DNA from: Domibacillus sp. DTU_2020_1001157_1_SI_ALB_TIR_016
GTDB lineage: Bacteria; Bacillota; Bacilli; Bacillales; Domibacillaceae
Direction of reading: 5' to 3'
Length of the DNA: 64,000 nucleotides
Assembly: GCF_032341995.1 (NCBI RefSeq)
Contig: NZ_CP135439.1
Span: 372,001-436,000, forward strand
In this document: positions 19,288-45,047 of the stretch, in pieces
Position numbering within the stretch: the first letter of the stretch is position 1
How the letters are laid out: the number at the start of each line of letters is the position of its first letter
Program-made: the position numbers and the translations under genes
The notes under the pieces: model-generated
The model's input: the letters and a program-made list of their open reading frames with translations, nothing else
Told to the model about the DNA's origin: nothing
The model's database searches: none

Positions 19288-19605
19288 ATGAATGCAAAGT
19301 TATTTAAATTAGTGGGCGGTTCTTTGCTTGTGACGATGATTTTAGCTGGGTGCGGCGGCGGTCAGGATGAGGAAGAGCAGCAGGAGGATCAGCAGGAACA
19401 ACAGCAGGAACAGCAGGATAATGGCACCGATACGCAAAATGACGTGATGGATGGCGAACAGGATATAGAGGAAGATGTGAATGAAGGCGAGCAGGATGTA
19501 GAAGAAGGTGTGGATCAAGGCGAGCAGGATCTGCAAGAGAATATTGATGAGGGTCAGGATGAGTTGGAAGATAACGGAAACAACAACAATAACAACAACC
19601 AATAA
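19288..19605 (+). CDS. Acidic repeat lipoprotein
   Basis: 105 residues from an ATG. The signal peptide ends in the lipobox LAGC (C22). After it comes a Glu/Gln-rich stretch, then four 11-residue repeats: DGEQDIEEDVN, EGEQDVEEGVD, QGEQDLQENID and EGQDELEDNG. The tail is poly-Asn and ends in Gln. The 11-residue spacing suggests an extended right-handed coiled coil on the outer membrane face. The protein is extremely acidic and has almost no aromatic residues. Function unknown; not a recognised enzyme family. Confidence 0.8.
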   Translation: MNAKLFKLVGGSLLVTMILAGCGGGQDEEEQQEDQQEQQQEQQDNGTDTQNDVMDGEQDIEEDVNEGEQDVEEGVDQGEQDLQENIDEGQDELEDNGNNNNNNNQ

Positions 19606-19691: not shown

Positions 19692-19744
19692 ATAAGAGTT
19701 ATTATTCTAAAGAAGTCAATGAGGCTATTTCTAGGAGGTACCTA

Positions 19745-20155
19745 TTGGCAATGTCCATCTTAAGTGGTTTATCACACGGTATTAAAATTAGCATTACCCG
19801 TTCCATTACAACGGCGTTTGAACAATATATGGCCAATATCATGTGGGAGGAAGAAGCCTATAGCCCCGCTGATTTCATGAAGGAATGGCAGAGCTATATT
19901 CATAAGCATGCTTCCTGGTATCATGATGTGCCGGACGATGTGAAAAACGATCCGCGGTTTCATGAAGAGCTGGCTGGTAAAATCAATCAAGTCGTCGCAA
20001 AAATTTTCTCGGAAGAACCAACAGCCGAGCAAATTGAGACATTGAATGCACAGCAGGAAAAGCTTGGAACCGATTACGATTTCTCATGTAAAGCGGAAGC
20101 CCGTTTTTATATTGATTTTTTAAATGAATACGAAAAAAAAAAGCCGAAGGGCTAA
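19745..20155 (+). CDS. Hypothetical protein, zero-frame product of a probable frameshift gene
   Basis: 136-residue product not matched to a named family. AGGAGG at 19733-19738 supports the TTG at 19745 (6-nt spacing); the ATG at 19751 is 12 nt away. The sequence is helical and mixed-charge, beginning LAMSILSGLSHGIKISITRSI, with no signal peptide or membrane segment. It ends YEKKKPKG and stops at 20153-20155. Ten A residues at 20133-20142 hold A-AAA-AAG in the zero frame. A -1 shift there would join it to a 61-codon open stretch (20143-20328), giving 194 residues. The gene lies between the acidic lipoprotein and ywpF. Confidence 0.75.
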   Translation: MAMSILSGLSHGIKISITRSITTAFEQYMANIMWEEEAYSPADFMKEWQSYIHKHASWYHDVPDDVKNDPRFHEELAGKINQVVAKIFSEEPTAEQIETLNAQQEKLGTDYDFSCKAEARFYIDFLNEYEKKKPKG

Positions 20156-20180
20156 GTCCGGCCGATGAACAGGACTTAGC
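20137..20180 (+). promoter_or_regulatory. Putative -1 programmed frameshift site
   Basis: Slippery heptamer A-AAA-AAG (20137-20143), split into codons in the zero frame as known sites require. A 7-nt spacer (20144-20150) follows. Then comes a perfect 9-bp hairpin, GCTAAGTCC (20151-20159) with GGACTTAGC (20172-20180), and a 12-nt loop. The zero-frame stop (20153-20155) lies inside the hairpin. The same arrangement drives the E. coli dnaX frameshift. The alternatives are transcript slippage on the A10 run or a simple indel. Confidence 0.6.
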
Positions 20181-20328
20181 ACTGGCTTCGCTGCTGTATG
20201 CCGAGGTGTATGATGAAAATCTGCCGATGCAGTCATACACAAAACAGGATATCTCTTATCTTATCCAGCTGCTTCAGCAGACGCTTCAAACTGGCCAGGA
20301 CGGACTCCGGTCGGATATTATTCATTGA
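20143..20328 (+). CDS. -1 frame extension of the hypothetical protein
   Basis: 61 codons plus stop, with no start codon or ribosome binding site of its own. It reads AEGLSPADEQDLALASLLY..., with an amphipathic segment SYTKQDISYLIQLLQQTLQ and the end GLRSDIIH. Residue composition is that of a real protein, and it continues the helical, acidic character of the upstream frame. It is best read as the C-terminus of the gene at 19745, made after a -1 shift. Confidence 0.6.
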   Translation, partial: AEGLSPADEQDLALASLLYAEVYDENLPMQSYTKQDISYLIQLLQQTLQTGQDGLRSDIIH

Positions 20329-20331
20329 TTG

Positions 20332-20361
20332 AACGCTTTCCCTTAAAGGAAGGCGTTTTTT
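20332..20361 (+). terminator. Bidirectional terminator between the frameshift gene and ywpF
   Basis: AACGC(T)TTCC and GGAAGGCGTT around CTTAAA, followed by T8 on the plus strand. Confidence 0.8.
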
Positions 20362-20781: not shown

Positions 20782-21006
20782 GTCGTTCACGCTCCTCTCA
20801 AGAAAGCGATTTATTAAAGAAAGTATAACAAGAATTAAACGAAAAATCATTTTTTGACCAAAAGGGATCGCCTTCCATCAAACAGGAAAGAAAAATAGTT
20901 CCCATAATTAACCTAAAAATGGGAAGAACATAAAGGAAATGACCTTTGTGTAAACCCATGTTTTTCCTTTATGCTAAAGCCAGCCCAACGAAAGGAGGGG
21001 AGCGAG

Positions 21007-21384
21007 CTGATAAATCAAGTGACGCTTGTCGGCAGACTGACAAAGCATCCAGAGGTGAAACATACAACAGACGGCACACCGCTTTTACAGACAACGATTG
21101 CGGTCAACCGGCCGTATCGAAATGCAAAGGGCGAAACAGACACCGATTTTATTTACTGCACAGTCTGGGGGCGCCTGGCCCAAACGGCAGCCAAGTACAG
21201 TGAAAAAGGTTCTTTGGTTGCTGTACTCGGTTCGATTCAAACGCGCAACTATAAAGACTCAAGCGGTAAAACCATTTATGTAACGGAAGTGCTTGTCCAG
21301 ACGATTCGTTTTCTCAGTAAAAAGCAGGCTGACACGCAGACGGGTGAATCGCCCGGCGTCATTCAAACTGTACCGTTAATTTAG
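21007..21384 (+). CDS. ssbB: Single-stranded DNA-binding protein SsbB, CTG start
   Basis: OB-fold ssDNA-binding protein linked to natural transformation in B. subtilis (YwpH/SsbB). The sequence xINQVTLVGRLTKHPEVKHT aligns with the B. subtilis start MFNQVMLVGRLTKDPDLRYT, so the initiator codon is the CTG at 21007. A perfect AAAGGAGG lies 8 nt before it (20991-20998). No ATG, GTG or TTG is near; the ATG at 20971 has no ribosome binding site and would add 12 unrelated residues. 125 residues. It lacks the acidic DDDIPF-type tail of SsbA, as expected for SsbB. Confidence 0.9.
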   Translation: MINQVTLVGRLTKHPEVKHTTDGTPLLQTTIAVNRPYRNAKGETDTDFIYCTVWGRLAQTAAKYSEKGSLVAVLGSIQTRNYKDSSGKTIYVTEVLVQTIRFLSKKQADTQTGESPGVIQTVPLI

Positions 21385-45010: not shown

Positions 45011-45047
45011 GCTCTGTCCCATTAACGGGACAGGGCTTTTTTTTTAT
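45011..45047 (+). terminator. Terminator of the tagA-galU operon
   Basis: GCTCTGTCCC-ATTAA-CGGGACAGGGC followed by a long T-run. Confidence 0.93.

Follow-up and report, generated by a model that had tools for sequence, protein, structure and literature searches.

The locus considered here lies in a window of 64,000 nucleotides (the whole stretch of Domibacillus DNA that was analysed) and raises the question whether a single gene next to ywpF is programmed for two proteins with a common start and, if so, whether the ribosome or RNA polymerase changes the reading frame. An earlier note on this DNA had proposed a dnaX-type -1 ribosomal frameshift at a slippery A-AAA-AAG followed by a hairpin, with slippage by RNA polymerase on a run of ten A residues (A10) as the other option.

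Results and discussion

The gene and its junction

The features of the locus are as follows.

19733..19738, + strand: ribosome binding site AGGAGG, 6 nt 5' of TTG 19745 and 12 nt 5' of ATG 19751
19745..20155, + strand: zero-frame ORF for the short product, of 136 codons if TTG 19745 is the start and of 134 if it is ATG 19751, the more probable one
20133..20142, + strand: A10 slippage tract, with A-AAA-AAG at 20137-20143
20153..20155, + strand: zero-frame stop TAA, 10 nt past A10
20143..20328, + strand: -1-frame extension, 61 codons plus TGA (20326-20328)
20151..20180, + strand: 9-bp hairpin, arms 20151-20159 and 20172-20180
20331..20358, + strand: terminator-like hairpin plus T-run, starting 2 nt past the extension TGA

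The zero-frame ORF ends in GAA AAA AAA AAG CCG AAG GGC TAA, the heptamer A-AAA-AAG being followed by a 7-nt spacer (CCGAAGG) and then by GCTAAGTCC (20151-20159), which is perfectly paired with GGACTTAGC (20172-20180). The A10, the phase of the heptamer, the spacer and the hairpin had been placed exactly in the earlier note, as was seen on re-reading the window; the -1 frame, described there as open for 61 codons past the zero-frame stop, has 61 codons only when counted from where the A-run ends; past the stop there are 56. The A10 is the longest run of A or T in the window, and exact A10 (8 genomes) or A9 (15 genomes) is found at the same place in 23 of the 24 genomes of the family; the tract at the junction is therefore more than chance. 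The sole other A/T run of nine or more in the window is T9 at 45037-45045.

In seven of the 24 family genomes (L021, L024-L029) a TAA stands immediately 5' of the conserved ATG in place of the GCA of the window, which makes ATG 19751, rather than TTG 19745, the probable conserved start. In six of the seven an in-frame TTG precedes that TAA, so that, apart from GTT-type variants, a one-codon ORF TTG-TAA separates the ribosome binding site from the start; AGGAGG and ATG are 12 nt apart in the genomes with this TAA. With ATG 19751 as the start, the products would be 134 and 192 aa instead of the 136 and 194 of the earlier note.

Conservation across family, order and class

The gene was found in all 24 family genomes, and two named Domibacillus loci encode the short product at 99% identity. 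In the 23 genomes with the exact tract, the zero-frame stop comes 1-10 nt past it and the -1 extension is 60-61 aa long. In the 24th genome (G021, locus L028) the run is A8, and it is the remaining frame in which the extension is open; since a database protein (P0023) is identical to the L028 product over the first 128 residues and carries an A9-type ending, KKKKSS, this A8 is either an assembly error or a strain variant.

The order-wide search, in which at most 10 candidates were scored per genome, matched 60 of 397 genomes as a lower bound. All 46 order matches outside the family (44 genomes) were tabulated together with the 24 family loci, and these 70 loci consisted of 40 with the extension in the -1 frame, one in +1, three fused and 26 short. 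Each of the 40 tabulated -1 loci has an exact A9 or A10 at the junction and a zero-frame stop 1-16 nt past the run, and among the 26 short loci the longest A-run in the last 75 nt before the stop is A7. The 40 loci belong to nine families, the evidence for one of them (f12, L092) being a second gene copy from a genome for which 6% contamination is listed. When family f47 was searched more densely, 5 of 61 genomes matched; two short loci and two A9 loci in the -1 relation were added, and the -1 loci with exact A9 or A10 came to 42, from 10 GTDB families within a single order. The same kind of search in family f28 (7 of 36 genomes matched) added four short loci and one broken gene (L179, L180; G818), which is in pieces with internal stops, and in families f10, f25, f39 and f9 no additional genomes were detected. 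A search of the class matched 34 of 398 genomes, and 25 of the matching genomes lie outside the order. The 22 inspected among these 25 (all except G673, G508 and G435) were short, and no run of 8 or more A residues preceded their stop. Inspected homologues without the extension thus number 54 over the family, order and class searches, and the extension is therefore dispensable in many lineages. A poorly resolved tree built on 126 columns of the N-terminal part requires 11 changes among the slip, short and fused states; plausibly the extension arose once, with later losses and one frame switch.

The comparison of homologues suggested in the earlier note has thus borne out the A-run, and the exact tract, the nearby zero-frame stop and the -1 extension recur together in all 42 loci. 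We conclude that one gene is very likely programmed for two products, by either route, as the earlier note had supposed of the short and the -1-extended form. A10 is an error-prone homopolymer, and one may think of an error in sequencing or of a one-frame gene recently hit by a frameshift mutation; however, the same run and frame relation are present in 23 of 24 family genomes and in 17 more tabulated loci, with six named Domibacillus loci among those sharing them, and an explanation of this kind has almost no probability left.

The extension evolves as protein

In the -1 frame the extension has a pN/pS of 0.224 among 13 distinct genus sequences, close by the 0.205 of the zero-frame CDS, while for the two alternative frames of these bases (genus control) it was 0.99 and 2.0. 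With 23 family sequences the values were 0.280 for the extension and 0.256 for the zero-frame CDS. The extension evolves under protein-level selection and would form a conserved, mostly helical tail of the long product.

It might be supposed that the extension is a separate downstream gene, translationally coupled at the zero-frame stop. The two frames do overlap there, and in 19 of 40 loci an ATG, GTG or TTG is found upstream in frame or within the first 20 extension codons; in the other 21 loci, the window included, there is no such start codon, conservation begins already with the first extension residues, and two orthologues are fused in frame, so coupling is scarcely credible.

When the fused product was searched against 5.8 billion proteins, 38 matches of 126-141 aa were detected, none of them covering more than 69% and none containing the extension. 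A fused relative used as query gave 10 matches, two of which were full-length (Bacillus solimangrovi and B. tianshenii). Save these two fused ones, the database relatives are annotated as a short hypothetical protein only. Among 131 fetched homologues, 105 end in KKK or KKN plus at most six residues, and many proteins annotated as 'hypothetical' or 'group-specific' may therefore miss a real C-terminal part.

Genomic neighbourhood and transcript end

In the window the gene is preceded by fabZ and a short acidic ORF and followed by ywpF (minus strand) and ssb, the Pfam E-values being 4e-38 (FabA-like), 9.8e-35 (YwpF) and 9.6e-31 (SSB). An ORF upstream (19288-19605) is short, lipoprotein-like and Q/E/D/N-rich, without Pfam match. 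The SSB-family protein beside ywpF (20971-21384) has the C-terminus TVPLI and no acidic tail; a main SSB is expected to carry such a tail. The gene often adjoins ywpF and ssb in its relatives, and several other families have different neighbours. Where the flanks reach far enough, short and extended forms occupy the same position between fabZ and ywpF/ssb, and many of them are therefore orthologues by position.

In 32 of 40 loci a terminator-like stem starts within 50 nt past the extension stop, and in none of the 40 does one start within 50 nt past the zero-frame stop, which places the end of the transcription unit with the long frame; in short loci a terminator-like stem follows the zero-frame stop in 15 of 26. 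The tract, the frame relation, the near stop, the extension as protein and the position of the terminator are all conserved here. On the minus strand, a terminator-like match at 20163-20142 ends on the A10 and faces the convergent ywpF. The A-run was accordingly considered as an antisense ywpF terminator and this was rejected, the stem being without conservation (mean z -0.58 over 36 distinct loci, with one strong case, L031, z -4.07).

Orthologues with the default product reversed

In two orthologues, L079 and L075 (Bacillus solimangrovi and B. tianshenii), the extension is in frame and the junction still reads GAA AAA AAA AAG with A10, so that the tract has outlived a change of the default product. 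They share GAA plus A10 with the window, the difference lying downstream of the run and not in its length. Modelled L079 and L075 mRNAs with one or two A residues more or fewer encode 131-138 aa, and the unslipped ones 194-195 aa. For the window the modelled mRNAs give the long product with A11 (192 aa) and A8 (191 aa), and short products with A9 (138 aa), A10 (134 aa) and A12 (139 aa). These orthologues with opposite default products, both with the tract retained, constitute a natural experiment.

An uninterrupted homologue without the slippery site, which in the earlier note was to count against recoding, was encountered only in the third of the fused sequences, a distant in-frame paralogue (L093/L169; G100, contig 8) of 196 aa. 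It reads AAA AAG AAG without any run, and the slip copy of that genome lies some 7 kb away. In both uninterrupted orthologues the A10 is retained.

The in-frame orthologues also bear on phase variation, in which the tract would change its length at replication and the long form would be switched on and off between cells. A long homopolymer inside a coding region suits such a switch, as does the A8 of L028 beside the A9-type ending of the database protein identical to it over 128 residues. Switching should, however, leave some loci in frame, and the -1 relation is common to 40 of the 41 out-of-frame loci tabulated, the A8 locus being the one exception; the two in-frame orthologues have the same GAA plus A10 and differ 3' of the run. 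We consider phase variation highly improbable.

Polymerase or ribosome

Programmed -1 ribosomal frameshifting, i.e. a tandem slip of tRNA-Lys(UUU) on A-AAA-AAA-AAG/C with some help perhaps from the hairpin in the window, would yield the same fusion. In its favour the window has the in-phase heptamer, the 7-nt spacer and the perfect 9-bp hairpin, and motifs of the A_AAA_AAG type are described as among the most efficient in E. coli when stimulators are present (PMC4066793). Derived from the codons, the heptamer in zero-frame phase is A-AAA-AAG in the window and A-AAA-AAA or neighbours elsewhere, and the presence of this nested ribosomal site (A-AAA-AAA and A-AAA-AAG/C) argues against the polymerase. 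The earlier note had assumed a single tRNA-Lys reading both AAA and AAG; with 150 of 354 tRNA candidates scored, all eight tRNA-Lys genes found read UUU, which would permit ribosomal slippage.

Some folding near the site is seen in close relatives (L012, z -4.13; window, z -1.18), but over 39 distinct loci the mean z against shuffles is +0.14 downstream and +0.14 upstream of the run (control -0.19), so that no conserved RNA structure was detected on either side and the loci fold like shuffles. The number of pairs in the window-type stem exceeded all 500 shuffles and slid versions, as can also happen when rows are related and one of them supplied the structure; in the 19 sequences compared, 68.4% of cells are paired and one of the nine pairs is broken in 12. 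In the 22 nt upstream, no more than 5 of 40 loci have a word of 4-5 nt resembling a Shine-Dalgarno (SD) sequence, and Rfam gave sub-threshold matches upstream only, none at the slippage site. The hairpin, whose conservation the earlier note had named as support for recoding, is thus present in the window and unconserved, and the fold z-scores and the stem pairing disfavour hairpin-driven ribosomal frameshifting as a general mechanism.

The run itself points the same way. The base following it is C in 6 of 40 loci, four loci have sites ending in AAC, and in two of 40 the run begins in codon phase 0, followed in both by C. Across these changes of phase and neighbouring bases the run stays at nine or ten A residues, although a ribosomal heptamer needs only seven bases, and where all 40 tabulated -1 loci have A9 or A10, none of the 26 short ones exceeds A7 near its end. 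In 38 of 40 loci an A occupies the third position of the codon that precedes the three lysine-type codons, whichever residue it specifies (E, L, I, V or R, with CGA and GTA among the codons), whereas A-ending codons make up only 7% of Val and 17% of Ile codons in the rest of these genes. In L060 and L067, the two loci with the differing phase, the preceding codon is CTT and the nine A residues come from three AAA codons. On the other side stands the A8 of one family genome.

Bacterial RNA polymerase is described as slipping efficiently on nine A or T residues (PMC5009743), and slippage on A9 of about 16% in each direction is given for a Firmicutes element, as is, for one such element, slippage on seven A (PMC6211511), from which it follows that nine are not strictly needed by the polymerase. 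In an E. coli reporter A9 is credited with 40% frameshifting (PMC3711429), and selection against A/T runs is stated to be evident at nine in many genomes (PMC1088944).

We propose that programmed slippage by RNA polymerase is probably the main agent; this second option of the earlier note fits better than the ribosomal shift. The dnaX-type shift with the hairpin as its cause, which that note had preferred, agrees poorly with the unconserved hairpin, the C after the run, the phase-0 runs and the tract of nine or ten A, and we regard a ribosomal slip as unlikely, though far less so than phase variation. RNA polymerase would slip on the A9 or A10 and produce a mixed mRNA population, in which unslipped mRNA would lead to the zero-frame stop a few codons on and to the short form of about 134 aa, and mRNA with one A more or two fewer would enter the downstream frame and encode the long form of about 192 aa. 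In the B. tianshenii/B. solimangrovi lineage the default would be reversed, the long form being in frame and slipped mRNA giving the short form. We infer that such slippage takes place in cells, with RNA polymerase as its agent, and that both proteins would be of importance.

The protein and the significance of the site

When the window products were searched against Pfam and NCBIfam, no match above cut-off was detected, and relatives gave scattered weak family matches, none above cut-off. PDB sequence searches brought no convincing match (best E 0.035, 0.48 and 0.072), and Foldseek no match at E 0.001 or better. The predicted fold weakly resembles the C-terminal domain of lambda Redbeta, which binds SSB and lambda exonuclease; the protein is on this account a candidate SSB binder, as a lead only. 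More speculatively, and with little probability in our estimate, selection might keep an isoform ratio set by polymerase slippage, the protein being perhaps an SSB-associated helical adaptor and the ratio following nucleotide pools or the state of the polymerase; if true, the tract would be a regulatory device and not merely a route to the extension.

Among the titles retrieved in literature searches none concerns the gene or its slippage, and the cluster may have been listed earlier. In Bacillales the site offers a clean place for telling slippage by the polymerase from slippage by the ribosome. To our knowledge, widely conserved slippage sites occur in few resident bacterial genes relative to mobile elements.

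Comparison with known systems

The closest parallel in mechanism is dnaX of Thermus thermophilus, in which RNA polymerase slippage on a 9-nt run gives tau and gamma (PMC5009743), a run of nine being found here too. Slipped dnaX mRNAs of that organism are reported to end soon in both other frames and so to give the short form (PMC5009743), which is exactly the layout of L079 and L075. The dnaX protein is unrelated, and in the 42 loci here it is the long form that needs slippage; T. thermophilus is also described as having two lysine tRNAs (PMC5009743), whereas the tRNA-Lys genes found here all read UUU. With E. coli dnaX, where a -1 ribosomal frameshift takes place on A-AAA-AAG plus a hairpin, the window shares heptamer, spacer and hairpin, and the tRNA-Lys genes found are of one type; unlike E. 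coli dnaX, the hairpin and an upstream SD are unconserved here, the run is 9-10 A, and in most loci the shift extends the product and does not truncate it.

Transposase genes of the IS1447 type in Firmicutes are described as joining two frames by transcriptional slippage on A9 (PMC6211511), as is proposed here; they belong to a mobile element and are productive in the +1 direction (PMC6211511), in contrast to the resident gene and the -1 relation of the present loci. Magnesium chelatase and other cellular GeneTack clusters are given as cellular genes with a frame transition at poly-A (PMC3711429), again as here, although their proteins are unrelated to the one encoded by this gene, whose annotated relatives are short-form except for the two fused ones. 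The gene next to ywpF would join this known class of slippage genes, with an unusual evolutionary record.
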